Shown one piece after another: positions 1-56,104 of a DNA stretch of 56,104 bases. Source of the stretch: Chloroflexota bacterium (GTDB lineage Bacteria; Chloroflexota; Anaerolineae; Promineifilales; Promineifilaceae); NCBI GenBank assembly GCA_024223125.1, contig JAAEOP010000732.1, positions 1 through 56,104 of the forward strand, in the 5' to 3' direction. The position numbers and the translations under genes were made by a program. Below the pieces are notes generated by a model. That model was given only the letters and a program-made list of their open reading frames with translations. It had not been told where the DNA came from and did not search any database. Position 1 is the first letter of the stretch; the number at the start of each line of letters is the position of its first letter.

Positions 1-1116
1 GTCTAAACTGCCTTCGATTGCTAAAGGAATGAAATAGTCTGGGGTTAAGCCTTGTTTGTGGATAGAGGCTTTTTCTGGGGTTAGCCATTGAGCGATGGTA
101 ATTCGTATACCTCCTTTGTTGGATAAAGTGTGCCAGGTTTGTACGGTGCCTTTGCCGAAGGAAGTTTGCCCGATGAGTGTGCCTCGTCTACGGTCTTGAA
201 TGGCCCCAGCTAATACCTCGGAGGCGCTGGCGCTGCCTTCATCAATAAGGATGACCATGGGCACCTCCTCGGCCAGACCGCCATCTTCAGATTCAAAAAG
301 CCGTTCACGGCCGTCGCCAAATCGTTCTACCAACACCGTCCCTTCACTTAAAAACTCATCGGCAATATCAACAGTCGTATTTAATGCCCCGCCGGGGTTG
401 CGGCGTAAATCCAAAATGAGACCGTCAGGATTGGCGGCCATTAGCTCTTCTAACACGCCGTTGAGTTCGCTGTTTGTACTGTCGCCAAAACGGCTGAGGC
501 GAATATACGCCAGATTGTCAGCCAACATTTCCCCACTGACGCTGACTAATATGACTACATCACGCACGATCTCGATGTCGAATGTTTCGCCGTCACGCTC
601 AATAGTTAGTAGTACGGCCGTACCCGCCGGACCACGCACCAACCCGACCGCTTCTCCTACATCCATGCCGGTCAAATCCACTCCATCGGCGGCGCGCAGA
701 ATATCGCCCGGCATTAACCCGGCCGCTTCGGCCGGAGAGCCATCAATAGGGGAGACAATGGTGATATAACCCTCGACATTTTCCACCTCAGCCCCAATGC
801 CCTGGTATTTGCCATCAAAGTTGCGTTCGGCCGCTTCCTGATCCTCCGGAGATAAATAGCGGGTATGGGTATCATCCAATGTGTCTAACATGCCTACAAT
901 GGCGCCTTCAACCAGGATTACATCATCAACAGGTTGCTGGTAATAACGTGTGTGAACTAAGTCCCAAACCTCCCAAAACGATTCAAGTTGCGCTTCCGTC
1001 GGCCCACGCCCAAAAAGATGAGGGGCTGCGGGCGATTGACCCACTGCATAACCTACAAAAAAGCCTAAGAAAGTAAATATCAAAATGGAAAGTGTTGTCG
1101 GCCAACGTTTATTCAT
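1..1116 (-). CDS. S41-family C-terminal processing peptidase (CtpA-like), C-terminus cut by window edge
   Basis: Open frame of 372 codons running off the left edge. Residues about 8-26 form one hydrophobic segment (signal anchor), so the enzyme is expected outside the membrane. A PDZ domain covers roughly residues 100-180. The S41 catalytic core follows, with the nucleophile region GSASASEVLAG and the general-base lysine in SFGKGTVQ, the Ser/Lys dyad of tail-specific proteases. Family members cleave proteins near their C-terminus. The start at 1116 is preceded by AGGAG with a 10-base gap. It is divergent from the sugar transferase at 1343. The family is certain, the substrate unknown. Confidence 0.9.
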   Translation of the reverse strand, partial: MNKRWPTTLSILIFTFLGFFVGYAVGQSPAAPHLFGRGPTEAQLESFWEVWDLVHTRYYQQPVDDVILVEGAIVGMLDTLDDTHTRYLSPEDQEAAERNFDGKYQGIGAEVENVEGYITIVSPIDGSPAEAAGLMPGDILRAADGVDLTGMDVGEAVGLVRGPAGTAVLLTIERDGETFDIEIVRDVVILVSVSGEMLADNLAYIRLSRFGDSTNSELNGVLEELMAANPDGLILDLRRNPGGALNTTVDIADEFLSEGTVLVERFGDGRERLFESEDGGLAEEVPMVILIDEGSASASEVLAGAIQDRRRGTLIGQTSFGKGTVQTWHTLSNKGGIRITIAQWLTPEKASIHKQGLTPDYFIPLAIEGSLD

Positions 1117-1281
1117 ATCTGTATTGCTCCTGAACTGTTTACCTGTTGTGGCAGGTTTGCAAGTTTGCAAGTGCGTTTAGTAAAAGAATTGTCTTCCGAA
1201 TATTATAGACTTGTTTCTGAGTATAGGGTTGACATAGGTTAAGAAGTGACTAAATAGTGTGAAGACGCAGCTAAAGTACAC

Positions 1282-1309
1282 TTGAAGCAAATCCCTGGTT
1301 TGTTACAAT
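1282..1309 (+). promoter_or_regulatory. Extended -10 sigma70-type promoter for the sugar transferase gene
   Basis: TTGAAG (1282-1287), a 16-base spacer and TACAAT (1304-1309) preceded by TGt, an extended -10. It lies 33 bases upstream of the ATG at 1343. Read by eye, with no experimental support. Confidence 0.5.
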
Positions 1310-1342
1310 CAAGCTGCTTAAATATTGGAAAGGGTTTGTAGT

Positions 1343-2854
1343 ATGACAACGCAAAAACTGCGTAATATCTATTCAATTACATTATTGCTGTTAGACATTG
1401 TGCTTATATTTTTGGCTTTTGCCCTGGCATATCAGCTGCGTGTGTCTGTGGAATGGCCTGATCCGTTGGTTCATGTCTATCCGTTAAGCAGTTATATGGG
1501 GTTGATCTTGCTGCAAGCGGCCGCTATTGTGATTACGCTTTTTCTAAATAAGCAATATTATATCCCCCGGGCGGCGTCTCGTGTAGACCAGGTTTATTAT
1601 ATTTTTACGGCCGTGTCCATCGGCACCCTCATTGCTGTAGCCCTCTCCACTTTCTTATTTAAGAGCAATGAAGTTATCCTGGATTACCCTCGAGCCATGA
1701 TTGTGTATTCCTGGTTATTTGCCATGATCTTGCTTTTACTAGGCCGGACAGTGCATCAGGTTGTACGTTATAAATTACATGATCGTGGCTGGGGTCAAGA
1801 TCGGCTGCTTATTGTTGGGTCTGGCGAGATGGCCCAAATTGTTGTGCAGCGTATTCAATGGTCGCCTTATCTGGGATATGACCTGGTAGGGGTTGTGAAT
1901 GGCAGCGAACTGGTATCCAATGTTCATGGCGTGCCGGTTATGGGCATGCCTGAAGATTTACCCCACTTGATCGAAGAACATAATATTGATGAAGTGATTA
2001 TTGCTCTGCCCGAAAAAGGGCACCGCGAAATGGTACGGATTGTTTCTTACTGTGAACGGGGTCGAGTCACCATTAAAATTGTACCCGATGTGTTCCAATT
2101 TATGACCTCTGAGGCTGGTATTGATGCGCTGGGCGGGTTGCCCTTGCTTTCTGTGCGCGATTATGCCTTGCGCGGCTATATGCTCATTTTTAAGCGGATA
2201 ATAGATTTTTTGGGGGCGCTCATTGGTTTGATTATTTTATCCCCCTTGATGCTTTTGTTAGCTATTGTCATTAAATTGGAATCGCCAGGCCCGGTATTTT
2301 TTATCCAGCAACGGATGGGTTTGGACGGCAAACCATTTCGGATGATTAAGTTTCGCTCTATGCGCTCTGATGCAGAACGGCATGGGCCAGGTTGGACAAC
2401 AGAAGACGATCCCCGACAAACCCGGTTGGGCAGTTTTCTGCGTAAAATTGATGTAGACGAACTGCCTCAACTGATCAATGTGTTTTTGGGGGAAATGAGT
2501 CTGGTCGGCCCCAGACCAGAGCAGGCGCATTATGTGGAACAGTTTCGGCGTACCGTGCCTCGTTACATGGAACGTCATCAGGAAAAGGGGGGGATGACAG
2601 GCTGGGCACAGGTGAATGGGCTGCGAGGAGACACATCTATTGCCGAACGGACAAAATATGATTTATGGTATTCCACAAACTGGTCTATTTTCTTGGACAC
2701 GAAGATTTTATTGCGGACAGTATGGCAGATTGCGGAACGTAAGAATACAGATGAGCGGGGGACGGAGGAACGGCCGTCGGAAAACTTGCCTACTCCGTTA
2801 GAGAAAAGTGAACCTACGGCCGCAGCTGCTCAGCCTACGTTAACTAGAGATTGA
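1343..2854 (+). CDS. Polyprenyl-phosphate sugar phosphotransferase (WcaJ/PssY type)
   Basis: 503 residues. Such enzymes transfer a sugar 1-phosphate from a nucleotide sugar to undecaprenyl phosphate, the first membrane step of exopolysaccharide synthesis. The N-terminal half has about four membrane segments (residues 10-30, 45-65, 80-105, 115-135), then a CoA-binding-like Rossmann region with IVGSGEMAQ. A further membrane segment (near 280-310) leads into the bacterial sugar transferase domain, with the family motifs PVFFIQQRMG, KFRSMRSDAE, DELPQLINV and SLVGPRPE. I place the start at ATG 1343, which has GGAAAGGG 8 bases upstream, not at the in-frame TTG at 1325. The last residues and stop lie in a dispersed GAGATTG repeat. 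The sugar is not determined. Confidence 0.9.
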   Translation: MTTQKLRNIYSITLLLLDIVLIFLAFALAYQLRVSVEWPDPLVHVYPLSSYMGLILLQAAAIVITLFLNKQYYIPRAASRVDQVYYIFTAVSIGTLIAVALSTFLFKSNEVILDYPRAMIVYSWLFAMILLLLGRTVHQVVRYKLHDRGWGQDRLLIVGSGEMAQIVVQRIQWSPYLGYDLVGVVNGSELVSNVHGVPVMGMPEDLPHLIEEHNIDEVIIALPEKGHREMVRIVSYCERGRVTIKIVPDVFQFMTSEAGIDALGGLPLLSVRDYALRGYMLIFKRIIDFLGALIGLIILSPLMLLLAIVIKLESPGPVFFIQQRMGLDGKPFRMIKFRSMRSDAERHGPGWTTEDDPRQTRLGSFLRKIDVDELPQLINVFLGEMSLVGPRPEQAHYVEQFRRTVPRYMERHQEKGGMTGWAQVNGLRGDTSIAERTKYDLWYSTNWSIFLDTKILLRTVWQIAERKNTDERGTEERPSENLPTPLEKSEPTAAAAQPTLTRD

Positions 2855-2989: not shown

Positions 2990-3001
2990 TCCAGTCTGGC
3001 T

Positions 3002-12014: not shown

Positions 12015-12139
12015 GTTGAAACCGCTTGTATTTGAAGGAAAAAGTTAAAACCCGCTGAATTTGTACAAACCTCCCCTCACCTAAATCCCCCAGATTGAGG
12101 TATAATTCAGCCAGATATAAGAGAAATTTGGAGGCGAAA

Positions 12140-12922: not shown

Positions 12923-12957
12923 ATCCTGCCTGTAACTTACAACTCGCAACTCCCTCC

Positions 12958-28497: not shown

Positions 28498-29619
28498 ATG
28501 TCCGATCTGAAGTATTGGTTGGGGTTTAATCTAGTTAAAGGCATTGGTCCGGCAAAGGTACAGGCTTTGTTAAGCTCTTTTGGGTCACTGGCTGCGGCCT
28601 GGAATACGACCGAATCCCAACTGCAAAAAATAGGCTTTGACCGGCGAGCAATTCGTACCTTTCGGCAGACTCGTGTGGACCTTGACCTGGATGCTTGCCT
28701 GGCGCGGGTAGAAGCGGCCGGCATCCAACTGCTCACTTGGGAATCGGCCGATTATCCCGATTATTTGCACGAAATTCCCAACCCGCCTCCTTTGCTTTAT
28801 GTGAAAGGTGAACTGCGTGAACAGGATCAATGGGCGGTGGCTGTGGTGGGTACGCGACGGTTAACAGCTTACGGCCGTCAAGTTACCCAAGATTTGGTAG
28901 CCGGACTGGTACGCAGCAATATCACCGTTATCAGCGGTCTGGCGCGAGGGATTGACGCTATTGCTCATAAAACGGCCGTAGACCTGGGCGGCCGTACCAT
29001 TGCCGTTTTAGGCTCCGGTTTGGATTGCATCTATCCGGCCGAAAATCGTACGCTAGCCCACCAAATTATGGCCGGACAAGGAGCCGTTATTTCTGAATAT
29101 GGTCTGGGTATTCAACCGGAAGCCAAAAACTTCCCCCCTCGTAACCGCATCATCAGCGGTTTATCTTTAGGAATTTTGGTGGTGGAAGCAGGAAAACGGA
29201 GCGGCGCTCTGATTACGGCTAATTTTGCAGCCGAACAAAACCGAGATGTGTTTGCCGTACCCGGTAACATTACCAGTCCTGCCAGCGCCGGCCCCAACCG
29301 GCTTATTCAAGATGGAGCCAAGTTGGTAACGCGGGTAGAAGATATTTTAGAAGAGTTAAACATACATATGGTGGCCGAACATACGGCCGTACAAATGGCT
29401 TTACCGGAAACGGCCGAAGAAGCCGCCCTTTACGCCCACCTGACAGGTCAGCCAGTTCATGTGGATGACCTCAGCCGGGAGTCAGGCTTGCCCAGCAGTC
29501 TGGTTAACAGTACGCTCACCATCATGGAATTAAAAGGGATGGTACGGCAAGTTGGCGGCATGAACTATGTGTTAAGCCGTGAACCGGATCCCGTTTATGA
29601 AATCAATGAAAGAGATTAG
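28498..29619 (+). CDS. dprA: DNA-processing protein DprA (Smf)
   Basis: 373 residues. A short N-terminal helix-hairpin-helix region (GIGPAKVQALLSSFG), the Rossmann core with AVVGTRRLTAYGRQV, ISGLARGIDAIAHK, VLGSGLDCIYP, NRIISGLSLGILVVEA and KRSGALITANFA, and a C-terminal winged-helix domain (~300-365). DprA protects incoming single-stranded DNA and loads RecA in natural transformation. The final residues ERD and the stop codon belong to a GAGATTGG repeat. Confidence 0.95.
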   Translation: MSDLKYWLGFNLVKGIGPAKVQALLSSFGSLAAAWNTTESQLQKIGFDRRAIRTFRQTRVDLDLDACLARVEAAGIQLLTWESADYPDYLHEIPNPPPLLYVKGELREQDQWAVAVVGTRRLTAYGRQVTQDLVAGLVRSNITVISGLARGIDAIAHKTAVDLGGRTIAVLGSGLDCIYPAENRTLAHQIMAGQGAVISEYGLGIQPEAKNFPPRNRIISGLSLGILVVEAGKRSGALITANFAAEQNRDVFAVPGNITSPASAGPNRLIQDGAKLVTRVEDILEELNIHMVAEHTAVQMALPETAEEAALYAHLTGQPVHVDDLSRESGLPSSLVNSTLTIMELKGMVRQVGGMNYVLSREPDPVYEINERD

Positions 29620-30862: not shown

Positions 30863-33265
30863 ATGAGCGAAGAACAGACAGGATATTGTTTTAAGTGTAA
30901 AGAAAAACGTGAAATGTTGAACCCGCAGGCAGAATGGGCTTCCAATGGGTCGCCGGGAACACGGGCTGCTTGCGCCGTCTGTGGGGGCACGATTTATAAG
31001 ACGGGTTATACACCCGCTCACGAAAATCTACCCAAACCGGAAATCAGTGTCGCGCCGCGCAAGAAGAAAAAGAAAAGCACGAAGGGTAAAAAGAAAAAAC
31101 GCGCTCCCCGTCGTTCTGGCAAACTGGTGATTGTGGAATCCCCGGCTAAGGCCAAGACGATTGGCCGCTATTTGGGACGGGGTTATACAGTCAAGTCCAG
31201 TGTGGGCCATGTGCGCGATCTCTTAAGGTCTCGACTGAGTGTAGATGTTGAACATGATTTCCAGCCAGAATACCGTGTGCCCAATGACAAACGGGCGGTG
31301 GTGAAAGAACTGAAAGCGGCCGCAGCCAAAGCCAAAGAAATATATCTGGCAACGGACCCGGATCGGGAAGGGGAAGCGATTGCCTGGCACGTACAAGAAT
31401 CAGCCGAAATGGATCCGGCCATTACCAAACGAGTCGTGTTCAATGAAATTACCAAGTCGGCCGTGCAAAAAGCCTTTGAACAGCCGCGCGAAATTGATAT
31501 GGACCGGGTGGACGCCCAACAAGCACGGCGTATTTTAGACCGCCTGGTGGGCTATAAACTCAGTCCCTTATTGTGGCGTAAGGTTCACGGCCGTCTCTCG
31601 GCCGGCCGGGTACAATCTGTAGCTGTGCGGCTGGTGGTAGAACGGGAGCGCGAAATTCAGCAGTTTGTGCCCGAAGAATCTTGGACACTGGATGCAGAGT
31701 TAAGCCAGCAAAAGTATGCTGATGAGAAGAAACGACCGTTTTTCCTGGCTAAACTGCACAAACTCAACGGCAAAAAACCCCAACTCAAACAGAAAGCGGA
31801 TGTACTCCCCCATCTGGATGTTTTAGAAAAAGCAGGTTGGACAATGGGCGACGTTCGTTTGGGCAAACGCACCCGTCGCCCGGCAGCCCCATTTACCACC
31901 AGCACCATGCAGCAAGAAGCCTCCCGTCGTCTCTCGTTTAACACCAACAAAACAATGCGAATTTCCCAACAGTTGTATGAAGGGATTGACCTGGGGGGCA
32001 GCGACGGGGCCATTGGTCTCATCACCTATATGCGTACCGACAGTGTGACCGTTTCCAACGAAGCGCAAACGGAAGCCCGATCCTACATCAGCAACCGGTT
32101 TGGGCCTAAATATGTGCCCGTCAAACCGCCCGTCTACAAGACCAAAGCCAAAGCAGCCCAGGAAGCGCATGAAGCGGTACGGCCGACTTCGGCTCTGCGT
32201 GTGCCTAAAGAGATCAAAGCCCATTTATCCCGTGACCAATATCGTTTGTACACACTCATCTGGGATCGGTTTTTAGCCAGCCAGATGTCTCCGGCACGGT
32301 ATGATACGGTGTCGGCCGATATTTGGGCCGGGGCTACAGATGTGGCGGTGACAAAACGGCCGTATCTCTTCCGCGCCACCGGTTCCACCCTCATCTTTCC
32401 TGGTTTCCTGGCTTTGTATGAAGAGACTCGTCCCGAGGATCGGCCGGATGATGACGACAACAAAGTGCCATCCGATTTGATTAAAAATGAAGCGTTAGAT
32501 TTACTGCGGCTGCGGCCGGAACAACATTTTACAAAGGCGCCCCCCCGCTTCAGCGAAGCAACGTTGGTGAAGACATTGGAAGAAAATGGTATCGGCCGTC
32601 CCAGTACCTACGCCGCTATTATCTCTACCATTCAAAAACGGAGATATGTGGAGCGCGACGGCCGTCGTTTGACACCCACAGAAACCGGCCAGGTTGTAAA
32701 CGATCTGTTGGTGGAGTATTTCCCCAATGTTTTGTCTGTAGACTTTACAGCCCGTATGGAAAATGAACTGGATAAAGTTGCCGAAGGGGAAGCGTGGGTA
32801 CCGATTATTGCTAATTTTTACAGCCATTTCGCCAAAAACCTGGATAAAGCGGATGAAGCGCTGCCCAAATTAGACCTTCGTCGAGAACCGGAACCGGTAG
32901 GGCGAGAGTGCCCCGATTGTGGCAGTCCATTGGTATACCGTGAGGGGCGTTACGGCCGTTTCATCGGCTGCAGCAACTTTCCCAAATGTCGTTATACGGA
33001 GCAAATCCTCAAGAAAGTAGGCGTCACTTGCACCAATGGTGGGGAATTGGTGGAACGCCGCACGAAACGCGGCCGTGTTTTCTATGGCTGTTCCCGTTAC
33101 CCGGACTGTGAATGGCGCAGTTGGAACAAACCCATCGTTAATGTCGATGGACATTGTGATGGCATTGTAGTACAGCTAAAAAACCAAAATACAGATTGTG
33201 TAGCTTGCGGCTTAAAAGAGGGGGTGGAAACATCCTCCCAACAGCGCGAGACCACCCCCACGTAA
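30863..33265 (+). CDS. topA: DNA topoisomerase I with N-terminal DUF5679-type zinc ribbon
   Basis: 800 residues. Residues 7-48 form a CxxC...CxxC ribbon (Cys9, 12, 37, 40) of the DUF5679 type, then a Lys/Arg-rich linker (66-84). Toprim starts at 86 with GKLVIVESPAKAKTIGRYLG and has DPDREGEAIAWH. The catalytic Tyr389 lies in ITYMRTDS. The C-terminus has one complete C4 finger (CPDCGSPLVY...CSNFPKC); the second finger has lost one cysteine (CTNGG), and a third is partial (CVAC). It relaxes negative supercoils. Absence of the ribbon in E. coli TopA makes this a fusion. Confidence 0.95.
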   Translation: MSEEQTGYCFKCKEKREMLNPQAEWASNGSPGTRAACAVCGGTIYKTGYTPAHENLPKPEISVAPRKKKKKSTKGKKKKRAPRRSGKLVIVESPAKAKTIGRYLGRGYTVKSSVGHVRDLLRSRLSVDVEHDFQPEYRVPNDKRAVVKELKAAAAKAKEIYLATDPDREGEAIAWHVQESAEMDPAITKRVVFNEITKSAVQKAFEQPREIDMDRVDAQQARRILDRLVGYKLSPLLWRKVHGRLSAGRVQSVAVRLVVEREREIQQFVPEESWTLDAELSQQKYADEKKRPFFLAKLHKLNGKKPQLKQKADVLPHLDVLEKAGWTMGDVRLGKRTRRPAAPFTTSTMQQEASRRLSFNTNKTMRISQQLYEGIDLGGSDGAIGLITYMRTDSVTVSNEAQTEARSYISNRFGPKYVPVKPPVYKTKAKAAQEAHEAVRPTSALRVPKEIKAHLSRDQYRLYTLIWDRFLASQMSPARYDTVSADIWAGATDVAVTKRPYLFRATGSTLIFPGFLALYEETRPEDRPDDDDNKVPSDLIKNEALDLLRLRPEQHFTKAPPRFSEATLVKTLEENGIGRPSTYAAIISTIQKRRYVERDGRRLTPTETGQVVNDLLVEYFPNVLSVDFTARMENELDKVAEGEAWVPIIANFYSHFAKNLDKADEALPKLDLRREPEPVGRECPDCGSPLVYREGRYGRFIGCSNFPKCRYTEQILKKVGVTCTNGGELVERRTKRGRVFYGCSRYPDCEWRSWNKPIVNVDGHCDGIVVQLKNQNTDCVACGLKEGVETSSQQRETTPT

Positions 33266-43950: not shown

Positions 43951-44028
43951 TTGCGAAGTCGGCTTTCGCCGACTGGGCTTCAGTCCACGAAGGTGGACTT
44001 CGCAATTGTAGTAGCGAATTTATTCGCC
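43951..44028. repeat. Compound cloverleaf-like palindrome between folD and trmH-like gene
   Basis: Outer arms TTGCGAAGTC (43951-43960) and GACTTCGCAA (43996-44005) enclose two inner hairpins, GTCGGC/GCCGAC and GTCCAC/GTGGAC. A third small palindrome AGCGAATTTATTCGC follows (44013-44027) and holds the stop codon of the minus-strand gene. Confidence 0.75.
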
Positions 44029-44841
44029 AGGTGATGCCAAGTGATGTTGTTGACGGTGAATTTCATATAGAATCACGGCCGTAGCCGCATTCACAGACAA
44101 TGAATCAATCCCACTGGCCATAGGAATTGTTACCTGCCTGTCTAGCCGCTTCAAGAAATCTTCTGGTAAGCCGAAATATTCATTGCCCATAAACACGGCC
44201 GTACCCCCTCTAGCAAATGTTGTCTCTGGCAGCAACGTACCCTGACCGGAGACAGTTCCCACCGTTTCAATGCCCAACTGTTGCAAATCTGCCAGGATGC
44301 TTTCTATGTTGTTGTAAGGACACACGGCCGTCTTAAACAAACTACCCATACTCGTGCGAACTGCTTTGGGGTGATAAGGGTCGCTTTGGCCGAGAAGGAT
44401 AACGGCCGCTGCCCCATGCGCATGAGCGGTGCGAATCATGGCCCCTACATTGCCGGGGTCAATGACATTGGCCAGAATGAGAAGAAGTGGGTGGTTGACG
44501 GCCGTCACACATTCCTGAAGTTTTGCCGCTGGTGGAATTTTGAGCAGTCCGATGAGTTGGCCCAGGTTACGGCCGTTACTCAACTCAGCCATCACCGCGT
44601 CAGGGACAAAGTAGCAGGGTGTAGGGGGCAGATTTGCCAGCAACTGTTGGCCGCGAACAGAATCAGTTTGGGCAAAACTGTCGGCCAGGATAACCAGTTC
44701 CAGAGAGAGGTTGGCGTGTAGAGCGCGTTCGTGCAATCGTATCCCTTCGATAGAATATAAACCGGTTTGCTGCCGCCCTTTTTTAGTCAGGCTGCGTTTC
44801 ACCATTTCTACAGCCCCGCGCCAATTGTCGTTTGTAGTCAT
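44020..44841 (-). CDS. TrmH/SpoU-family RNA 2'-O-methyltransferase
   Basis: 273 residues. An N-terminal substrate-binding segment (~1-105) and the SPOUT knot domain with NVIDPGNVGAMIRTAHAHGA, VFMGNEYFGLP and IPMASGIDSLSVNAATAVILYE, the three motifs of the TrmH family. It would methylate a ribose in rRNA or tRNA; the target is not determined. It overlaps the upstream DUF2721 gene by 4 bases, and its stop lies in a palindrome. Confidence 0.92.
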   Translation of the reverse strand: MTTNDNWRGAVEMVKRSLTKKGRQQTGLYSIEGIRLHERALHANLSLELVILADSFAQTDSVRGQQLLANLPPTPCYFVPDAVMAELSNGRNLGQLIGLLKIPPAAKLQECVTAVNHPLLLILANVIDPGNVGAMIRTAHAHGAAAVILLGQSDPYHPKAVRTSMGSLFKTAVCPYNNIESILADLQQLGIETVGTVSGQGTLLPETTFARGGTAVFMGNEYFGLPEDFLKRLDRQVTIPMASGIDSLSVNAATAVILYEIHRQQHHLASPGE

Positions 44842-45251
44842 GACGGCCGTTGCGTAATTTCCTCATGATGTTGGCGGACAATTTTTAGCGAACTTGTTGA
44901 TTCTCGTATCAGTTCAACCGAAGCAAATACCAGGCAGAGAATTCCCAAGAAGGATAGCAAAATTACGATCCAATCTGCTGATGAAGCAACCATACTGGCA
45001 ACGCCGCCAATAAGGCTGGCTACGGCAAATAAACCGACGCTGAGGTAGAGGCTGACCAACGCATTCCGAAAAAGAATGGAACGAGATAACAGGTGATCGG
45101 CGATTATTTTTGCTTCTTCTGGTTCATCTTCCAGGAGCAGGTGATGGAATTCGCTGTGGATTTGTCCGTAGCGGATGGAGGTGGACATGACCAAGAGGGC
45201 TACGCCGGGGAGTAAGACGAGTGGGGTTAGCCAGAGGGCTGTATTGAGCAT
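44838..45251 (-). CDS. DUF2721-type membrane protein
   Basis: 137 residues from ATG 45251, one base after the stop of the CoA-transferase gene; longer starts (45272, 45281) overlap that gene. An N-terminal hydrophobic segment (~5-22), a charged middle (HSEFHHLLLEDEPEEAKI) and two further helices (~65-85, 95-115) fit the DUF2721 family, whose function is unknown. Coupled to the TrmH-like gene by ATGA overlap. Confidence 0.75.
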   Translation of the reverse strand: MLNTALWLTPLVLLPGVALLVMSTSIRYGQIHSEFHHLLLEDEPEEAKIIADHLLSRSILFRNALVSLYLSVGLFAVASLIGGVASMVASSADWIVILLSFLGILCLVFASVELIRESTSSLKIVRQHHEEITQRPS

Positions 45252-45252
45252 A

Positions 45253-46020
45253 TTAACCTGTCCAAAAACCATGCGGATCAAATTGACGAATGAGGGCTAA
45301 TTCTGTTTCAGTGGGGATGGGTGTTGTTTCCAGTTGAGAAGCTATTTTCAACGGCCAGTCAGTGTGCGCCTTTACCTGTTCTACGGTGACGCCGGGGTGG
45401 ACGGCCGTTAGAATCATCTCTTTGCTGTCGGGTTCAAATTTTAGGACGCCGAGGGTGGTGATAACGGCCGTCGGTCCCCCACGCGGTAACCCCGCCTGCG
45501 GTCGCCAATCGCCACCATCTCCATAACCGGGCGAAGTGATGTAATCTACCCGTTCCACAAAACGCCGCTTTTCATGTTTCATAATGATGATGTGCCGTTT
45601 TGCCAGACTGGCCAAATCGCACGCACCACCGGAGCCGGGTAGACGAATGAAATCGCCAGTCAGATCACCAGTGTAGGTGGTGTTCAAATTGCCAAAACGG
45701 TCTACCTGTGCCCCGCCGATGAAGCTGACGTCTACCAGCCCTTGCTGCAACAGACCCATTAAATCGGCCGTGTCTGCTAACCACTGCGCCTGATAAAGGG
45801 TGGGCAAGTCGCCCATTGTTAAGATGGGTTCGGGTACGGCCGTGTCCCGCACAATCCCCAATTCATACACCCCAACGGCATTGGGAGCGTGGCTGCTTTT
45901 CGCCAATTGAAAGCCTAACAGCGGCAGCCGCATCCCCACGAAAACCACATTGCCATCATGCACTTCGCGGGCGGCGGCCGTTACCATCAATTGAGCTAAA
46001 GTGTATCGTTCTGCACTCAT
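45253..46020 (-). CDS. CoA-transferase subunit beta (family I, GctB-like)
   Basis: 255 residues. The family motif region with the likely catalytic Glu53 is VGVYELGIV; FIGGAQVDRFGNLNTT and LPGSGGACDLASLAKR are typical of the glutaconate CoA-transferase type. It would work with the alpha subunit at 47187, exchanging CoA between acids. The two subunit genes are usually adjacent, but here about 1.2 kb of small genes separate them. The substrate is unknown; an aromatic or ring-cleavage acid is suggested by the neighbouring aryl-CoA genes. Confidence 0.87.
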   Translation of the reverse strand: MSAERYTLAQLMVTAAAREVHDGNVVFVGMRLPLLGFQLAKSSHAPNAVGVYELGIVRDTAVPEPILTMGDLPTLYQAQWLADTADLMGLLQQGLVDVSFIGGAQVDRFGNLNTTYTGDLTGDFIRLPGSGGACDLASLAKRHIIIMKHEKRRFVERVDYITSPGYGDGGDWRPQAGLPRGGPTAVITTLGVLKFEPDSKEMILTAVHPGVTVEQVKAHTDWPLKIASQLETTPIPTETELALIRQFDPHGFWTG

Positions 46021-46494: not shown

Positions 46495-47103
46495 TTAGAT
46501 ATTGCTTTGTTGGTTGAATATTTTTTGCAGATCATCTTTGTAAAGGCATAGGCAATCTTCAATCTCATAAGGAGAAAGAATATCGAATGCAGACGGTAAA
46601 TCGTCTTTCTCAATATATTTTTGCCTCTCGTCTAAACCAATAGCTTTCGCTCCATCTCTGACGCCTCTATGCAAATAAATAACATCGGGTTCCAGGTCAA
46701 GATAAGCTCCAATACGAAGGGCTGTATCATAAACTGCAAGTTCGCCTATCATGAATATTGGACGGATGTTATCGTCAATTTTGTTGAGCAACTCGTCAAA
46801 ACTCTTGCAATTTTGCAAGTCACTCGACAAGAGACGTCTTTTTGCCTCGTGTAACGCATTCTTTGGAATTCGATACTGATGTGGATGTCTTTTTCCACTT
46901 GGCAGTTTTGCTAATGCAGCTAATTCAATTGTCTCCTGTAACGATGGTTGTTTGTAAAAATCCAATTCACTCGTTGTGTCTGACTGGTAACAGGCCTCGT
47001 AATGATGAACAACTTGCCCATAGCTATTTAAGGAGTCATATAGTGAAGATTCACCGCAACCTACTTTCACACATTGTCGGTGTGTTTTCTTTTTTCGACT
47101 CAT
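46495..47103 (-). CDS. Hypothetical protein
   Basis: 202 residues from ATG 47103 with AGGAG 7 bases upstream. I do not recognise a family. It opens with a basic segment and CVKVGCGESS, has KRHPHQYRIP in the middle, and a conserved-looking stretch IGELAVYDTALRIGAYLDLE followed by YLHRGVRDGAKAIGLD. No membrane segment. The DNA is clearly more AT-rich and lacks ACGGCCGT, unlike the neighbours, which suggests recent acquisition. It sits between the two CoA-transferase subunit genes. Confidence 0.7.
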   Translation of the reverse strand: MSRKKKTHRQCVKVGCGESSLYDSLNSYGQVVHHYEACYQSDTTSELDFYKQPSLQETIELAALAKLPSGKRHPHQYRIPKNALHEAKRRLLSSDLQNCKSFDELLNKIDDNIRPIFMIGELAVYDTALRIGAYLDLEPDVIYLHRGVRDGAKAIGLDERQKYIEKDDLPSAFDILSPYEIEDCLCLYKDDLQKIFNQQSNI

Positions 47104-49695: not shown

Positions 49696-51546
49696 TTACG
49701 GCCGTTCGTTATCAACTGCATAAATCCCTTCAGGAATGGGGTCGGCGTAGAGGGCTGTTACTAAATTGACGTGGCTGTTTAGGACGGCGCTTTGGTTGAT
49801 GTAACCTTTGTCGGTGGTTTCGTTGCGGTCAATTTGGGGCGCTTCGGGGAGCAGGGCAAAGCGTTCAAACCGTTTGCTGCTGCCACTTTTCTGGTTGTTG
49901 TGTTGACGGAAGATGTTTTGAAAGAGGCGGATCACGGCCGTATCCCCCAAAAATACATCATCCTCTAAATGGTCTAATTGTGGGAACTGTTGCCGCAAAG
50001 CGGGAATATTGGGGTAGACGAGCGCGGTCAGGTACGCTTTGTTGGGAGCGGCCACAACCATATCCAGCAAATACGGCTGCCCCAACTGGTTGACACTGAT
50101 TCGCAGGCCGATATTATGCACCCAGACGCCGCTGGTGAGTTTGAAATCTTCACCAATACGGCCGTCAAAAATCAAACCAGCCTCTGGATCATCCGCGTCC
50201 AAAAACTGTCCGGCGTCCCCGGTGCGGTAATATCCCTCCTCGTCAAAAGCCAGTTCTGTTGCCAGGGTGTTGTTGTAGTAACCGGCGGTCACATTTGGGC
50301 CGCGAACGCGCAGTTCCTCTTTGCCTGATTTGTCGGCCGCCAGCTTAACCTCCACGCCGGGAATGGGCAGACCGATGACGCGGGCATCTTCAATTTCCCC
50401 GTAAACCAGCGTGGCGCAGGGGGATGTTTCTGTGCAACCCCAGGCGGAAAAGAAAGGCACAACCGTACCCAATACATCCCGGCTCATCTCTTTCATTCCT
50501 TCGTAGGTTGTTTGGTCTAGGGCGGCGGCGGCCGTAAAGATAAACTTTAGATTTTTGAAAAATGCCTGCCGCAGTTCGCTGTCTGTTTTCATTTGATTGT
50601 AAAGCGCAGTGTAGGAGCGGGGCACACCCATGTACATGGTGGGGGAGATATTTTTGATGTTTTGTATTGATTTGGCAAAACCAGCCGGCGTGGGATTGCC
50701 GTTGTCAATATAAAATGTACCCCCCAACATCAACATCATGTTGAAGACGAAATTGCCGCCAAAAGTATGATTCCACGGCAGCCAATCTACCACCACCTCA
50801 TCGCTGTCCAAAAAAGGCCAAACCTGACGGATACCAATCTGGTTGGAAGCCATCATGCCATGCGTGACCATCACCCCTTTGGGCAGGTCAGTGGAGCCGG
50901 AGGTGAATTGGATTTTGGCCAGGGTGTTGGCGGTTACGGCCGTAAAGTGTAGCTCACCTTCGTCAGATAAGTTTGTTTGCGGGGTGGATAGGTCGGTAAA
51001 CGGCCGTACTGCATCAAACTTCCCGGCGTTGGAAAAGGCAAATAATTGCACCCGGCTTAAATCCCACTGACGCAGTTTGGGCATGTGCCATTCTGCATTG
51101 GACATGATTAAAATGGGGGCTTGTGTCACGTCCAAAATATGCTTGATGTGTGTGCCGGTTTGCGAACGCACCGAATAAGCCAGACTGATTGGGGCTGCCG
51201 GATGTCCAATCTGCATCGCCGCCAGTTGGATGAGAGCCAGGTTGATGCAGTTCTCAGAAAGGATGGCAACGGGTGCATCTGGGGGCAAGTGGAGGTTGAG
51301 AAGACCATTGCTGATTTGGTTAACGGCCGTGAGAGCGGCTGCATACGTTAACCCCACCCACCCGCCATCCGGCCCGCGCTCCTGCAAAAATGGCTTATCA
51401 GGAAAGCGACCTGCATTTTGTCGCAGCCAAACGGCTATATTTTTCGGATAATCATTAAGAGGGATTTTGTTGGTGAGAATGCGGTGGTTTGCGACCGTTG
51501 CTTCAATTTTGATTTCCGGCTCCACCCATTTCCAATTTGATGGCAT
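49696..51546 (-). CDS. AMP-forming aryl-CoA ligase (feruloyl-CoA synthase type)
   Basis: 616 residues of the adenylate-forming superfamily. The phosphate loop is IQFTSGSTDLPKGVMVTHG, followed by WLPWNHTFGGNFVF, a feature of the feruloyl-CoA synthase subgroup, then the adenine region AWGCTETSP and YYRTGDAG. The usual C-terminal Lys motif is not obvious in the last 100 residues, as in some members of this subgroup. It probably activates an aromatic acid to its CoA ester for the neighbouring molybdenum hydroxylase. The precise acid is unknown. Confidence 0.85.
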   Translation of the reverse strand: MPSNWKWVEPEIKIEATVANHRILTNKIPLNDYPKNIAVWLRQNAGRFPDKPFLQERGPDGGWVGLTYAAALTAVNQISNGLLNLHLPPDAPVAILSENCINLALIQLAAMQIGHPAAPISLAYSVRSQTGTHIKHILDVTQAPILIMSNAEWHMPKLRQWDLSRVQLFAFSNAGKFDAVRPFTDLSTPQTNLSDEGELHFTAVTANTLAKIQFTSGSTDLPKGVMVTHGMMASNQIGIRQVWPFLDSDEVVVDWLPWNHTFGGNFVFNMMLMLGGTFYIDNGNPTPAGFAKSIQNIKNISPTMYMGVPRSYTALYNQMKTDSELRQAFFKNLKFIFTAAAALDQTTYEGMKEMSRDVLGTVVPFFSAWGCTETSPCATLVYGEIEDARVIGLPIPGVEVKLAADKSGKEELRVRGPNVTAGYYNNTLATELAFDEEGYYRTGDAGQFLDADDPEAGLIFDGRIGEDFKLTSGVWVHNIGLRISVNQLGQPYLLDMVVAAPNKAYLTALVYPNIPALRQQFPQLDHLEDDVFLGDTAVIRLFQNIFRQHNNQKSGSSKRFERFALLPEAPQIDRNETTDKGYINQSAVLNSHVNLVTALYADPIPEGIYAVDNERP

Positions 51547-51561
51547 GGTTGCTCCTGTGGG

Positions 51562-51632
51562 GATAGAGATTGAGAGATTGGAGATTAGAGATTGAATCTC
51601 CCAATCTCCAATCTCCTAATCTCCAATCTCTA
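51562..51632. repeat. GAGATTGG-type palindromic repeat, copy 6
   Basis: GATAGAGATTGAGAGATTGG-type left half and AATCTCCAATCTCC-TAATCTCCAATCTC right half around TTGAA; the longest copy. It encodes the last residues (IIEIGD) and stop of the FAD-subunit gene. Confidence 0.8.
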
Positions 51633-52605
51633 TTATTTCTGCCAAAGCACGGCCAATAAAAACCCTCGTCACCTTTTTCCGATAGCTCAACGACATATCG
51701 GTGTTGTCCATTGGTTTGGCCGGCCGATATGCTTTTTGGGCGAATTGATCAATTAAGGCTGGGGTGAGCTTTTGGTCGATGAGCATATTCTGTACTTCCT
51801 TATCCAGGGGGATGGGTTGGGAGGAGACGGCGCCGAGGACGACACGGCCGTCTACACACACGCCCTCATCATCTAGCTTTACGGCCGCAGCCACGCCCAA
51901 AATAGGAAAATCAATTGTCCCCCGCCGCCGCAGCTTCAAATAGGTCATGCGCCAACCCGTGCGCGGCGGTAGATGAATGGAGACCAGAAGTTCATCCGCT
52001 GCTTTGGTCAGATAGAATTGACCGTCGTTTTGGTACATTGCTTCTAGCGGAATTGTGCGCTCACCGTCTGGCCCCACCAACCGTACCTGCGCCCCTAGGG
52101 CAATCATCACTGGCGCTGTGTCTGACGAGGAAACGGCCAGACATTTGGGACTGCTTTTAGCAACCCAGCAAATATCGCCATCCTTCTTCTTGCAAAACCC
52201 TAGCGCCTGCCGCCATTCAAACGTCTGGTCGTAATAAGTGCAGCGAGTGTCCACGCACAAATTGCCGCCAATTGTGCCCACATTCCGCAGCGGCGGCGAA
52301 GAAACGAGCGCGGTCGACTTTGCCAGCGCCGGATATTGGGCTTTGATTTGGGGATGATTGGCGATTTCTGTCAACGTCATGCCGGCGCCAATCGTGACCC
52401 CAGTCCCATTGTTGAAAGAACGCAGTTCTGCAATATCGCTCAAGCCAATCAGCAGCTGCGGTTCCATTTGTCGCCGCTTCATTTTGGGGTACAGGTCTGT
52501 GCCGCCAGCGACGTACATGGCGTGTCGGCCGTGTTCCTTCTTCAAGGCCACTGCTTCTGCCACTGTTTGGGGAGAGGTGTAGTTAAAAATAGGTAATCTT
52601 AGCAT
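51616..52605 (-). CDS. Molybdenum hydroxylase FAD subunit, 4-hydroxybenzoyl-CoA reductase beta-like
   Basis: 329 residues. FAD-binding VAGGTDLYPKM and TIGGNLCVDTRCTYYDQ are typical of the XDH medium subunit. An inserted loop carries Cys122, Cys138, Cys146 and Cys155 (TRC, GFCKKK, DICW, PKC); in the beta subunit of 4-hydroxybenzoyl-CoA reductase such a loop binds an extra [4Fe-4S] cluster, and this spacing looks the same. That would suit a reductive dehydroxylation of an aryl-CoA. It lies beside the Mo subunit and an aryl-CoA ligase. The last residues come from a repeat. Confidence 0.88.
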   Translation of the reverse strand: MLRLPIFNYTSPQTVAEAVALKKEHGRHAMYVAGGTDLYPKMKRRQMEPQLLIGLSDIAELRSFNNGTGVTIGAGMTLTEIANHPQIKAQYPALAKSTALVSSPPLRNVGTIGGNLCVDTRCTYYDQTFEWRQALGFCKKKDGDICWVAKSSPKCLAVSSSDTAPVMIALGAQVRLVGPDGERTIPLEAMYQNDGQFYLTKAADELLVSIHLPPRTGWRMTYLKLRRRGTIDFPILGVAAAVKLDDEGVCVDGRVVLGAVSSQPIPLDKEVQNMLIDQKLTPALIDQFAQKAYRPAKPMDNTDMSLSYRKKVTRVFIGRALAEIIEIGD

Positions 52606-52647
52606 CTTTCTTTTCCAGTGTTTGTTGATTGACCGTTGACCATAAGT

Positions 52648-52736
52648 GTTAACTTAAGCGAAGACCTCGCAGGTTTTAACGCAAAACCTCAGAGGGGCGT
52701 AGATCATTTTGGAAACCTGCGAGGTCTTAAGTTAAC
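52648..52736. repeat. 89-bp inverted-repeat element GTTAACTTAAG...GACCTCGCAGGTTT
   Basis: Left arm GTTAACTTAAG-(cgaa)-GACCTCGCAGGTTT, right arm AAACCTGCGAGGTCTTAAGTTAAC, centre about 36 bases. Short TTGACCGTTGACCATTGAC phrases flank it on both sides (52632-52644, 52741-52778). It fills the gap between the FAD and Mo subunit genes. Confidence 0.8.
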
Positions 52737-52773
52737 GACAATGGACCGTTGACCATTGACGGTTGACCGTTGA

Positions 52774-55140
52774 TCATTGTCCCCGTTCCACCAAAATCGG
52801 CTCTGGGAAGGTGATATTTGGAATCTTCGTGGGGCCGATGCGGGGGTCTATGCCGCGCGCTTTGCGTTCCAGGGCGGCTAAAATCTTTTCTGGGTGGATG
52901 GGCACTTCATCTATTCGCACGCCAACAGCGTCATGGATGGCGTTGGCGACGGCGGGCATGATGGGCAGCAGCGGCCCTTGCCCCGCTTCCTTTGCCCCAT
53001 ATGGGCCTTCGGGATCGTGGGTTTCAATCAGGAATGTTTCCACTTCGGGCATATCCAGCGAACTTAAACTTTTGTAGTCGAGCATGGAAGGGATTTTGTG
53101 CAGCCCCTGGCGGAAGATTTGTTCTTCCATCATCACTTCGCCCAGACCCATGTAAGCGCCCCCTTCCACCTGCCCGGTAACAAGCATGGGGTTCAACGCT
53201 TTGCCGATGTCGTGAGCTAACCACAATTTGTCTACGGTGTATAGGCCGGTGTCGGGGTCTACGGTGACGGCCGCCACGCAAGCCGAATAGCTGTAATTGG
53301 GAGACGGTCCCACGCCGGCCCCTTTGAAACGGCCGCCGCGCCGGGGTGGGGTGTAACTGCCCACGCTGCCCAATGTGCCGTATTTTATTTCCGCCAATTC
53401 GGCCGCTTCGGCAAAGGTCATTAGCTGTTCCACATCTTGACTGTAAACAATGCTGTCGCGGATGGAGATGAGTTCGGGGGGAATGTTGAGTTTTTCGGAG
53501 ACGGCCGTAATCAATTTGTGGCGTAATGGCTGGGCGGCGGCAATGGTGGCGTTGCCTGTCATCAGCGTTACTCGGCTGGAGTAGCTGCCCAGGTCTACCG
53601 GCGTCAAGGCCGTGTCCCCAGCTACCACTGTCACCTCATCCAACGATACACCTAGCTCTTCGGCCGTAATCGTCGCCAACACCGAATCCGACCCCTGGCC
53701 GATGTCGGTGCTGCCGCAAAAAACTGTCACCCCGCCGCCGCGATCAATCTTCATTTGTACCCCGGAATGGGGCATTTTATTCCAGTAAATGGGTAGCCCT
53801 GCCCCGCTTAGATACGAGCCGCAGCCGAGGCCAATCCCCTGACCATCAGGTAAATTGCCAAATTTGACCCGAAAGTCGGAAGCGGCCGTCACTTTCTCAA
53901 TACATTCCTTCAACCCAATTGTGGTAACGGTAAGGTGGTTGATGGTTAATGAGTGGGCCGGGTGTATATGATTTAGTCGCAAATCGGCCGGGTTCAAATC
54001 TAAATCCTGGGCAAATTTATCTAGCTGCACTTCGAGGGCAAAGCGGGGTTGGGGCGTCCCGTGTCCGCGCTTGGGGCCGCAGGGAGGTTTGTTGGTGAAG
54101 ACGCGAATGGCTTCAAATTTATAATTCTTGATGGGATAGGTGACAGTTTGCAATGCGCCGGTGTAATAGGCGCTGGCGATACCGTAACTACCATATGCAC
54201 CCCCGTCCAGATGGGAACGAAAGTGCATGGCTGTGATGGCGCCATCTTTTGTCATACCGGTTTTGACCCACATGAGTACCGGATGACGGCCGCGATGACT
54301 GTAAAAAACTTCTTCGCGGGTGAGGGTGCATTTCACCGGCCGTCCGGTCAGCATAGCCAATTTGCAGACGATGATTTCGTGGGGGAAGGGGTCTGTTTTG
54401 CCGCCAAAGCCGCCGCCGTTGGGCGTGGCGATGACGCGAATACGGCCGCGTGGCATTTGCAATGTTTTTTCCAGGGCGCGATGAAGGTAGTGGGGGGTTT
54501 GGGTGGAGGAGTGGAGGGTGAGGTGACGGCCGTCGTAAGCGGCTACGGCCGCGTGCTGTTCTAAGGCCAGATGGGTATTGCCTTCATAGTAAAACATATC
54601 TTCGCGGATATGGTCAGCCTGGGCAAAACCATCCGCCACATCCCCAAATTCCAGGGAGATGTGCTTGTGGATATTCCCTTTGTCGGCGTATTCGTGAATC
54701 TGGTAAGCGTCATCGTCTAAAGCCAATGATTCTTCAATAGACATGAAGCTGGGCAGCAGTTCGTATTCGACGATGATGTCTTGTAGGGCGGCGACGGCCG
54801 TTTCCTCATCCAGGGCGGCTACGGCCGCGACCGGGTCGCCTACCATGCGCACCCTGTCCACGCACAGCGCCTCTTCATCTTGACTAACGGGTAAGATGCC
54901 AAACTTGATGGGCAAATCTTTACCGGTGATGACGGCCAGGACACCCGGCCGTTCCAAAGCTGGCATGGCGTCAATGTACGCAATGCGGGCATGGGGATGG
55001 GGGCTGCGTAAAATCTTGCAATACGCCATGCGCGGCAAAACAACATCATCCGCAAAAACCGTTGCCCCCTTCGCCTTGCTCAACGCTTCCACTTTCAGAT
55101 GCGATTTGCCGATGATATTGAGTGTTTCTTGAGTTGTCAT
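52774..55140 (-). CDS. Molybdenum hydroxylase large subunit (xanthine dehydrogenase family, aryl-CoA reductase-like)
   Basis: 788 residues. It begins with GKSHLKVEALSKAKGATVFADD, has the molybdopterin signature GGGFGGKTDPFPHE, RGHGTPQPRFALEVQLD, and STDIGQGSDSVLATI for cofactor contact. Near the C-terminus the active-site segment reads GAKEAGQGPLLP with Gln721 where most XDH-family enzymes have Glu. With the FAD and [2Fe-2S] subunits it forms a three-subunit enzyme of the 4-hydroxybenzoyl-CoA reductase or related type. Substrate not proven. Confidence 0.88.
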   Translation of the reverse strand: MTTQETLNIIGKSHLKVEALSKAKGATVFADDVVLPRMAYCKILRSPHPHARIAYIDAMPALERPGVLAVITGKDLPIKFGILPVSQDEEALCVDRVRMVGDPVAAVAALDEETAVAALQDIIVEYELLPSFMSIEESLALDDDAYQIHEYADKGNIHKHISLEFGDVADGFAQADHIREDMFYYEGNTHLALEQHAAVAAYDGRHLTLHSSTQTPHYLHRALEKTLQMPRGRIRVIATPNGGGFGGKTDPFPHEIIVCKLAMLTGRPVKCTLTREEVFYSHRGRHPVLMWVKTGMTKDGAITAMHFRSHLDGGAYGSYGIASAYYTGALQTVTYPIKNYKFEAIRVFTNKPPCGPKRGHGTPQPRFALEVQLDKFAQDLDLNPADLRLNHIHPAHSLTINHLTVTTIGLKECIEKVTAASDFRVKFGNLPDGQGIGLGCGSYLSGAGLPIYWNKMPHSGVQMKIDRGGGVTVFCGSTDIGQGSDSVLATITAEELGVSLDEVTVVAGDTALTPVDLGSYSSRVTLMTGNATIAAAQPLRHKLITAVSEKLNIPPELISIRDSIVYSQDVEQLMTFAEAAELAEIKYGTLGSVGSYTPPRRGGRFKGAGVGPSPNYSYSACVAAVTVDPDTGLYTVDKLWLAHDIGKALNPMLVTGQVEGGAYMGLGEVMMEEQIFRQGLHKIPSMLDYKSLSSLDMPEVETFLIETHDPEGPYGAKEAGQGPLLPIMPAVANAIHDAVGVRIDEVPIHPEKILAALERKARGIDPRIGPTKIPNITFPEPILVERGQ

Positions 55141-55243
55141 TGTTTTTTCACTTTGTCTGAGACTACAACGAATTGGAGTAAGTAACGAATTCGTTCATTT
55201 CTAAAATTATGGAGCCCGCTTCCTGCTTCCTGTTCCTAATGTT

Positions 55244-55861
55244 TTAAGACGTTAACATCCCACGTCGATCCTGAAATATGAGATAATCAGCAATTTGGCC
55301 TTCTTCATAGTCTTGTGGATGATGATGTAAATCCTCAGATGTAGGCGCATCTAAATACAAAGTCAGCAAATGAGAATCGCTTTTTTGTCTGAGTCTCAAA
55401 TCACACCTTCTTTCTACCAACTTGACATGGTCAATCAATGAGCCACTCAACATTTCGTAGTAATCAGATTTGGAGCGAAAACCGTTTATTCTGACAAAAC
55501 GTGAACCGCTTGAAATTGGTAATACAAGATATTCACCAAACCCGGCATCCTTACCTGGTTCTAGGCGCATACCCCAAAAACCATGCCCACCCATTCCATA
55601 TGTCCCGAGACTTGAGGAAAATCCATCCACCTTTCGTCCTATCAATCGCTCAATTCCCACATCAACCAAAGTTTGCGGGATTCCCCAAACCCAAACTTTG
55701 TCAGGTGGCATTGGAACGATAGCTGGTCGTCCACCAGAATTAACAAATCCTTTTTGCTCCCACTTTGACAAATCTTTCTTGTAAACATGTACAGCATATC
55801 TACGTACAATGCCGATCTTAAATTCTGGCGGCCTTGGGCGGTCGGATTGTCTTCTTCTCAT
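55244..55861 (-). CDS. Hypothetical protein inserted between hydroxylase subunit genes
   Basis: 205 residues from ATG 55861; a basic N-terminus (MRRRQSDRPRPPEFKIGIVR), then a mixed region with GRPAIVPMPPDKVWVWGIPQ and a Gly-rich segment SSLGTYGMGGHGFWGMRLEPG. No known domain is recognised and no membrane segment is present. Low in ACGGCCGT and more AT-rich than the hydroxylase genes, so probably acquired. The gaps on both sides (55141-55243 and 55862-55921) show no other gene. Confidence 0.65.
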   Translation of the reverse strand: MRRRQSDRPRPPEFKIGIVRRYAVHVYKKDLSKWEQKGFVNSGGRPAIVPMPPDKVWVWGIPQTLVDVGIERLIGRKVDGFSSSLGTYGMGGHGFWGMRLEPGKDAGFGEYLVLPISSGSRFVRINGFRSKSDYYEMLSGSLIDHVKLVERRCDLRLRQKSDSHLLTLYLDAPTSEDLHHHPQDYEEGQIADYLIFQDRRGMLTS

Positions 55862-55921
55862 TTCATCAACTCAGTAACCATAGGGCGATATGATTGTCAT
55901 CTGTCACATAGATGAATCATG

Positions 55922-56104
55922 TCAAACGGCCGTTTCCATTTCTTCCAGGCGATTGGCCGCTAATTCTACAGCTTCCAAAATTTTCAAATAGCCAGTGCAG
56001 CGGCACAGATTTCCGGCTAATGCTTCCCGAATTGTTTGCCGGTCAGGGTGCGCTGTTTCATCCAATAACGCTTTGGCGGTGACGAGCATACCGGGGGAAC
56101 AGTA
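55922..56104 (-). CDS. [2Fe-2S] subunit of the molybdenum hydroxylase, N-terminus cut by window edge
   Basis: 60 residues visible, running off the right edge. CSPGM and GNLCRCTGYLKI hold cysteines of the second, helical [2Fe-2S] cluster that passes electrons from the Mo site. The C-terminus ends in LEEMETAV. It is the small subunit (HcrC/XdhC-like) of the enzyme encoded by the genes at 52774 and 51616. Confidence 0.92.
   Translation of the reverse strand, partial: YCSPGMLVTAKALLDETAHPDRQTIREALAGNLCRCTGYLKILEAVELAANRLEEMETAV

Follow-up and report, generated by a model that had tools for sequence, protein, structure and literature searches.

A 56,104-nt stretch of DNA from a Chloroflexota bacterium (contig JAAEOP010000732.1 of assembly GCA_024223125.1; hereafter the window) carries 73 exact copies of the octamer palindrome ACGGCCGT, or ∼1.3 per kb. 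The same word runs through whole genomes of one Chloroflexota order, and its individual sites persist between relatives far more often than other 8-mers and with the same codons. These sites are therefore held in place, not merely made often, and ACGGCCGT is almost certainly an actively maintained element of the kind known in cyanobacteria as highly iterated palindromes (HIPs). An earlier reading of the window, made from the sequence alone, had likened the word to HIP1. That comparison holds: the Chloroflexota word is a clade-wide, genome-wide octamer palindrome that is a feature of the DNA itself, with a constant CGxxCG core, changing flanks and fixed sites that are kept.

The palindrome in the window and across the order

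The excess in the window goes well beyond composition. In 100 dinucleotide shuffles, ACGGCCGT appeared 0.81 times on average and at most three times, and it ranks first by count among the 256 palindromic octamers. Markov models of orders 1 to 6 predict 0.83, 1.8, 5.1, 16.6, 39.6 and 57.8 copies (both-strand values halved). The expectation rises from order 4 upwards because the model then contains pieces of ACGGCCGT itself; with ACGGCCGT masked, the order-3 expectation is 2.3 (4.6 for both strands). Synonymous-codon shuffling of the window genes (60 shuffles) gave 6.85 ± 2.3 copies, with a maximum of 15, against 70 coding copies. The sequence-only reading had called the palindrome over-represented across the window and had staked this claim on the count not approaching the codon-usage expectation. 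Both parts stood, with 73 copies against the one or two expected from di- or trinucleotides. The core CGGCCG is likewise raised (217 copies versus 37 expected), also outside the full octamer (144 versus 48), so that a looser form is kept, and GCGGCCGC occurs 21 times against 2.6 expected.

Within the 47 called genes (longest-ORF calls) lie 67 of the 73 copies, read in frame as TAV (30), (D/H/Y/N)GR (25) or.RP. (12). The scarcity of the word in foreign-looking genes, which had been put forward as a signal, did not survive closer inspection. The genes at 46,495-47,103 and 55,244-55,861 do lack a copy, yet the foreign-looking interval at 46.2-47.1 kb contains one (46,355). Two 0.6-kb genes without the word mean little, because 16 of the 47 called genes have none and the density is 1.3 per kb.

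Enrichment is high both inside and outside genes. Order-1 observed/expected ratios for genes and for the remaining sequence are 103 and 116 in genome G003 (genomes are given as G numbers and loci as L numbers), 88 and 85 in the window, and 99/151, 56/58, 53/117 and 60/108 in four other sets, although the non-coding samples are small (three sites in the window). The palindrome is a feature of the DNA and not of particular genes. It nonetheless shapes protein sequence. The tripeptides TAV, SAE and AAA are in-frame readings of the octamers, and TAV reaches 5.4-7.9 times expectation in four ACGGCCGT sets; the ratio is 1.6 in a control that lacks the word, and G304 and G189 have 1.3 and 0.9, respectively. 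SAE is 5.4 times expected in G304, whose word is TCGGCCGA, and 0.6-1.6 times in other sets. AAA stands at 3.9 in G189, yet it is also raised in the window (4.1) and in one further set (2.3). Even spacing or periodicity was not upheld, as the variance/mean ratio in 1-kb bins (1.50, 1.03 and 0.74 in three contigs) is close to random.

Comparison with related genomes, which the sequence-only reading had advised, revealed a word that is both clade-wide and genome-wide. The DNA topoisomerase I (TopA) of the window is 66-75% identical to that of 14 loci from Anaerolineae, Ardenticatenaceae and unplaced Chloroflexi assemblies, and the window is Chloroflexota DNA from inside their clade. Among these 14 loci (TopA identity ≥66%), 13 carry ACGGCCGT at 1.0-2.3 per kb and L006 at 0.23 per kb; the remaining 66 of the 80 loci fetched by TopA have three copies or fewer each. 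Six close relatives have 10,726-15,176 copies genome-wide and G004 has 2,887, with 130-459 copies of the reversed word, while the distant G006, the eighth genome sampled, has 4 and 113, respectively. Within one Chloroflexota order, 27 of 56 genomes carry ACGGCCGT at ≥0.99 per kb (maximum ∼2.1), and their counts of the reversed word are 40-459. A class-wide sample of 298 genomes contained 11 with more than 1,000 copies, all from that order.

On a TopA tree of 55 rows, 11 changes occur among six word states; one clade of 43 rows contains, nested inside it, the lineages with other octamers as well as a cluster of losses. By eye, ACGGCCGT looks ancestral in that clade. The tree comes from a single gene and a quick search, with several weak forks and G189 on a long branch, and its states were assigned by thresholds of our choosing (a dialect requires 0.9 per kb). 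Six genomes stand outside it, two with no TopA match (G313 and G324) and four with fragments (G175, G314, G327 and G331).

Site maintenance, dialects, viral contigs and gene context

Pairwise alignments around topA provide the evidence that individual sites are maintained; the pairs share loci and are not independent genome samples. At 88-90% identity, 33/34, 31/33 and 35/37 sites of the first locus are kept in the second, compared with 44-53% of all 8-mers and 47-59% of composition-matched words (the 33/34 belongs to a 90%-identical pair in which 53% of 8-mers survive). At 78% identity, 21/27 and 38/43 sites are kept versus 19-20% of 8-mers; at 74% (L010), 10/14 versus 12%; and at 72% (the window), 9/14 versus 9%. 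With the second locus as the reference, these pairs retain 33/38, 31/35, 35/35, 21/25, 38/47, 10/11 and 9/11. Composition-matched words behave much as all 8-mers do, with 12-59% kept across all pairs.

Codon choice tells the same story. Where the amino acid is unchanged, codons within sites are identical in 73/73, 66/66, 63/63 and 69/70 cases in four pairs, and the same codons elsewhere in 413/693, 553/669, 491/620 and 545/674. Three further pairs have 45/47, 48/49 and 48/49 identical codons in sites against 58-60% elsewhere, for an overall range of 96-100% inside sites and 58-83% outside. Most of the single-base differences that do occur at sites are C-to-T or G-to-A changes; a few lie at an outer base, and one is a core transversion.

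Some relatives use other words. TCGGCCGA occurs 172 times against 3.7 expected in sampled sequence of G304 and 66 times against 2.5 in G102, with whole-genome counts of 9,414 and 7,668. GCGGCCGC is the frequent word in G189 (114 versus 3.5 sampled; 12,040 genome-wide, against 2 for its reverse), and TGCCGGCA in G312 (26 versus 1.0 sampled; 3,665 genome-wide). Four genomes (G159, G287, G212 and G332) have CGGCCG without a fixed flank. ACGGCCGT itself is reduced to 83-198 copies in G304, G102 and G189. The dialects TCGGCCGA, GCGGCCGC and plain CGGCCG thus keep the CGGCCG core, and G312 uses TGCCGGCA. G189, G159, G287, G332, G333 and G334 contain hardly any copies of the reversed octamers TGCCGGCA and CGCCGGCG (2-43 in 4-8 Mb); GCCGGC is seemingly avoided there, perhaps because of a restriction enzyme. 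A word nearly missing from these genomes is, in G312, the highly iterated one.

Sequence preference extends past the octamer in a lineage-specific manner. The preceding base is A or T in 97% of sites in G304, C or T in 84% in G189 and A in 58% in G319; G003 and the window show hardly any preference there. In G003, G319, G189 and the window, G is also slightly over-represented at positions three and four beyond the octamer (about 42-54% at position four), which may arise from codon phase or a longer recognition site. Single-base deviants, summed over 17 sets at order 3, are in excess at the first and last base (458 versus 188 expected) and not in the core (235 versus 319). Flank deviants are not in excess in G189 (7 versus 15.3) or G102 (7 versus 7.8), and hardly so in G002 and G007. 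Depletion of core near-misses, at 0.74 of expectation, was not upheld, as 7 of 62 control palindromes are equally low. CGGCCG outside the full octamer exceeds expectation in G319 (99 versus 75) and G304 (77 versus 37).

The word is also found in viral contigs. A scan for two ACGGCCGT copies within 34 bp returned at least 120 stretches, 80 of which were looked through. At least 19 of 108 viral loci (≥3 kb) carry one or more copies per kb with the searched pair left out, although two of the 19, L299 and L358, lie on one contig. A control scanned in the same way for TCGGCCGA gave none of 114 viral loci at 1 per kb among the matches listed. Whole-record counts for 20 viral records, picked from these 80 loci mainly as the densest and hence not a measure of the share of phages with the word, put 14 at 1.1-3.5 ACGGCCGT per kb, with 0-7 copies of the reversed word. 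Terminase or portal genes were recognized in L282, L286, L335 and L351, and weakly in L359; those of L286, L335, L351 and L359 each contain one to five copies. Records with such genes carry the word at 1.1-2.3 per kb, which is host density, and these viruses presumably infect the ACGGCCGT hosts. Mobile DNA thus seems either to be subject to the underlying process as well or to benefit from having the word. For the same reason motif density, which had been proposed as a marker of horizontally acquired genes, is of doubtful use. L299 and L337 have phage-like or plasmid-like genes and no clear structural gene. L337, which may be phage or plasmid, has the highest density of the viral records counted (227 words in 65.5 kb) and encodes a ParB-like protein and, at 12024-13187 (minus strand), a PAPS-reductase-like protein (phrog_12882, E 2e-126).

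The sites of the window and the genes around them are collected below. The six-copy cluster, which the sequence-only reading had already pointed out, was recovered by exact search. dprA had also been named there; beyond the sites within the gene, no evidence links it to the palindrome.

Table. Copies of ACGGCCGT and selected genes in the window
Feature	Position	Strand	Remarks
ACGGCCGT sites, first base	307, 614, 1607, 2770, 4101, 4787, 6454, 8588, 8714, 8936, 12322, 13258, 13468, 14183, 15523, 16509, 17337, 19228, 19655, 20047, 20649, 21268, 22335, 22346, 22626, 23076, 23234, 24177, 25004, 25245, 25780, 26852, 28148, 28406, 28871, 28972, 29383, 31587, 32356, 32658, 32952, 33311, 33413, 34887, 35461, 35790, 35820, 38434, 39246, 39922, 40516, 44075, 44195, 44324, 44498, 44569, 44843, 45401, 45464, 45836, 46355, 47641, 49698, 49934, 50158, 50936, 51000, 51323, 51844, 53501, 54526, 54794, 55926		exact search; palindrome
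Copies outside called genes	34,887, 40,516, 46,355, 55,926
dprA	28498..29619	+	three sites
topA (DNA topoisomerase I)	30863..33265	+	four sites; marker for finding relatives and building the tree
Six-copy cluster	44075..44850 (776 bp)		five in one gene, sixth in the next gene (44,838-45,281)
TrmH/SpoU-type RNA methyltransferase-like gene	44,020-44,841	minus	five sites; best family TIGR00186, below cut-off
CoA-transferase subunit B-like gene	45,253-46,020		under cut-off
Copy reaching the stop codon of its gene	49696-49705	minus	read as ERP, then stop
Probable aromatic-acid or xanthine-type gene cluster	49696-55140	minus	molybdenum hydroxylase subunits like 4-hydroxybenzoyl-CoA reductase alpha and beta (both under curated cut-offs); acyl-CoA synthetase

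Candidate causes

On balance we lean towards reading ACGGCCGT as the HIP of one Chloroflexota order, kept by a sequence-specific process inside the cell, with dialect switching. The word would have been gained, probably once, near the base of the 43-row clade. The process would recognize the CGGCCG core together with one or two bases on its flanks and act on all resident DNA, chromosome and phage alike, and a changed flank preference of the recogniser would turn a whole genome over to a new dialect such as TCGGCCGA or GCGGCCGC. A single recogniser would presumably do all of this. The core may be modified (perhaps GGCC, as N4-methylcytosine, by an orphan D12-family methylase), with the mark linked either to biased repair or to selection favouring the sites that bear it. 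Methylation-directed repair has been proposed for HIP1 (Elhai 2015, PMC4390886, in the text available), and the same source places the GGCC methylase Alr1052 in MethyltransfD12. By analogy, a modification-and-repair mechanism is a serious but tentative candidate here, a little short of probable. A bolder version seems rather improbable though well worth stating: a HIP independent of cyanobacteria, kept without a cytosine methylase by a factor that reads 8-10 bp, switches flanks, rewrites genome and tripeptides, and imposes the word on phages as a mark of self.

Methylation had been suggested by the sequence-only reading as a perhaps, with a search for a CGGCCG methylase to follow. Profile searches of the 56 genomes of the order matched PF00145 (C5 cytosine methylase) in 26 and PF01555 to some degree in 52, with 45 over the cut-off. 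Neither family tracks the word, and methylation as the cause was not established; nor was mismatch repair, likewise offered as a perhaps. Across 60 methylase loci (at most 30 per family), the eight largest protein clusters hold two to eight members. A pattern scan for the D12 motif order in 4.2 Mb (402 sequences, a small part of each genome) found one protein only, a Dam-like protein in L157; the genome to which this locus belongs, G296, has a low density of the word (0.11 per kb).

Several results weigh against the reading we favour. Searches for PF00145, PF01555, Vsr and Dnd yielded no recogniser. Of the 27 ACGGCCGT genomes, 13 lack any PF00145 match, and this family is rejected as a general cause; a PF01555 methylase common to all is likewise rejected, as the family is missing or marginal in five genomes (G001, G317, G319, G175 and G327, none with a match better than 9.5e-10). 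Neither family alone therefore supplies the methylase, and four of these five (G001, G175, G319 and G327) lack PF00145 as well. A methylase alone, whether for GGCC or CGGCCG, would not explain the dependence on outer bases, since the core outside the octamer is at or below expectation in G003 (173 versus 170), G189 (18 versus 37.5) and G102 (14 versus 24). Elhai's G-meC repair model predicts no flank, because the internal GGCC already places a G before the methylated C. In five of six sets the sequence outside genes has fewer copies per kb than the genes, and GC content is lower there. Finally, the genomes with known titles are metagenome assemblies of unstated completeness.

The strongest competing explanation, which we consider unlikely but well within contention, is that the word is the site of an abundant DNA-binding protein, such as a nucleoid, replication or segregation factor or a Chi-like nuclease brake, with selection keeping the sites and phages carrying them as self. 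Strong site-level maintenance, 8-10 bp specificity with genome-specific outer bases (A/T in G304, C/T in G189, A in G319), the occurrence of the word in viral contigs and the fact that neither PF00145 nor PF01555 supplies a universal methylase would all fit. However, the near-random spacing forms no even ladder, there is no candidate protein, and Chi sites are not known to be palindromes.

Uptake of own DNA, another suggestion of the sequence-only reading, is less likely still. Here the competence machinery would prefer the word, biased uptake and recombination would raise its copy number, and the flanks would be receptor dialects, as in Neisseriaceae. ComEC is present in 50 of 56 genomes, sites are conserved at orthologous places, the density is ∼1-2 per kb, and a constant core with changing flanks recalls uptake-sequence dialects, whose core is CTG (PMC3630211, in the text available). 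But ComEC does not discriminate genomes with and without the word, being found in 25 of 27 ACGGCCGT genomes and in 25 of the 29 others. The word is also a perfect palindrome and its core near-misses are not in excess in the 17-set sum, even though flank near-misses are; uptake-enhancing sequences are described, in the available part of PMC1939737, as non-palindromic and, as we understand it, with near-misses enriched. Viral records in which terminase or portal genes were recognized match the hosts in word density, unexpected for an uptake signal, and uptake is therefore unlikely to be the main cause and was not established as one.

Two remaining ideas fare far worse. Very-short-patch repair by Vsr has skewed word counts in E. 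coli, and Dnd phosphorothioate modification targets a GGCC core in Streptomyces, yet Vsr (PF03852) occurs in 8 of 56 genomes, and DndC exceeds the cut-off in 5 and matches more weakly in another 5. Most genomes rich in the word lack both systems; on these counts both are rejected as a general maker of the word, either being highly improbable in that role. The five genomes with DndC (G005, G251, G315, G318 and G222) could, by analogy, carry a sulfur-marked version of it. Codon usage, amino-acid composition or GC content alone has practically no chance of explaining a word that, though GC-rich and read as common residues (TAV, GR, RP), falls 7- to 14-fold under synonymous shuffling in each of six dialect-carrying sets, is as enriched in non-coding DNA and is rare when reversed.

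Relation to known systems and implications

HIP1, reportedly described in 1995, is the obvious precedent, and to our knowledge there is still no agreement on its function. The cyanobacterial literature allows a close comparison; the sources cited here were available in part. HIP1 (GCGATCGC) and the Chloroflexota word are both GC-rich octamer palindromes with a CGxxCG core, CGATCG in the former and CGGCCG in the latter (PMC4390886). Densities are similar, at 300-2,700 per Mb for cyanobacterial HIP1 and about 1,000-2,100 here (PMC4390886). In both systems flank-switched derivatives (TCGATCGA in cyanobacteria, TCGGCCGA here) and sporadic alternates occur, one-base deviants are biased to the outer bases, and the word is shared by a clade in which some members have lost it (PMC4390886). 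GCGATCGC itself is found once in the window genes, never in five other sets of the order and twice in the control, so this is not HIP1 proper. Besides the phylum and the word, the systems differ in that the 8-mer dialects here replace each other almost completely, and in that CGATCG methylases are almost coextensive with HIP1 (PMC4390886) whereas PF00145 and PF01555 do not follow the word here. Viral contigs carry the word in Chloroflexota; the available text of PMC4390886 does not contain 'phage'. M.Ssp6803II of Synechocystis, a GGCC N4-cytosine methylase, has as its target the centre of the Chloroflexota word, and its loss affects transcription, replication and repair (PMC6560206).

In a different branch of the comparison, uptake sequences of the Neisseriaceae occur at about one site per kb. 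They too are genome-wide words with a constant core and lineage-specific flanks that follow phylogeny (Frye et al. 2013, PMC3630211, in the text available). They differ in being non-palindromic (PMC1939737) and in needing an uptake receptor, while the word described here is a palindrome present in viral contigs.

HIPs are already known in cyanobacteria, and the literature seen on iterated palindromes appears to concern these organisms, their proteins or phages. No report of a HIP in Chloroflexota was found in the literature searched, which was largely without subscription papers. Octamers that reach the frequency of HIP1 sites are said to occur in very few genomes of bacteria (Elhai, unpublished, as quoted in the available text of PMC3497702), and other bacteria with such octamers, not named there, may be known to that author. 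New, to the extent of these searches, are the phylum and the word, the near-complete turnover of dialects inside a single order, the imprint on tripeptides, the occurrence of the word in viral contigs and the absence of a universal methylase in PF00145 and PF01555.

With an independent HIP in a further phylum, built on a word of its own, the competing ideas about HIPs (methylation, mismatch repair, uptake and chromosome structure) become testable by comparison, as the cause should be common to both phyla and change with the dialect. The order offers natural replicates, with 27 genomes using one word, four using other octamers (TCGGCCGA in two, GCGGCCGC and TGCCGGCA in one each), and relatives in which the word has been lost. 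In practice, a word that alters protein sequence could also bias k-mer binning and the detection of gene transfer. In another vein, it could serve to link uncultured phages to these hosts.

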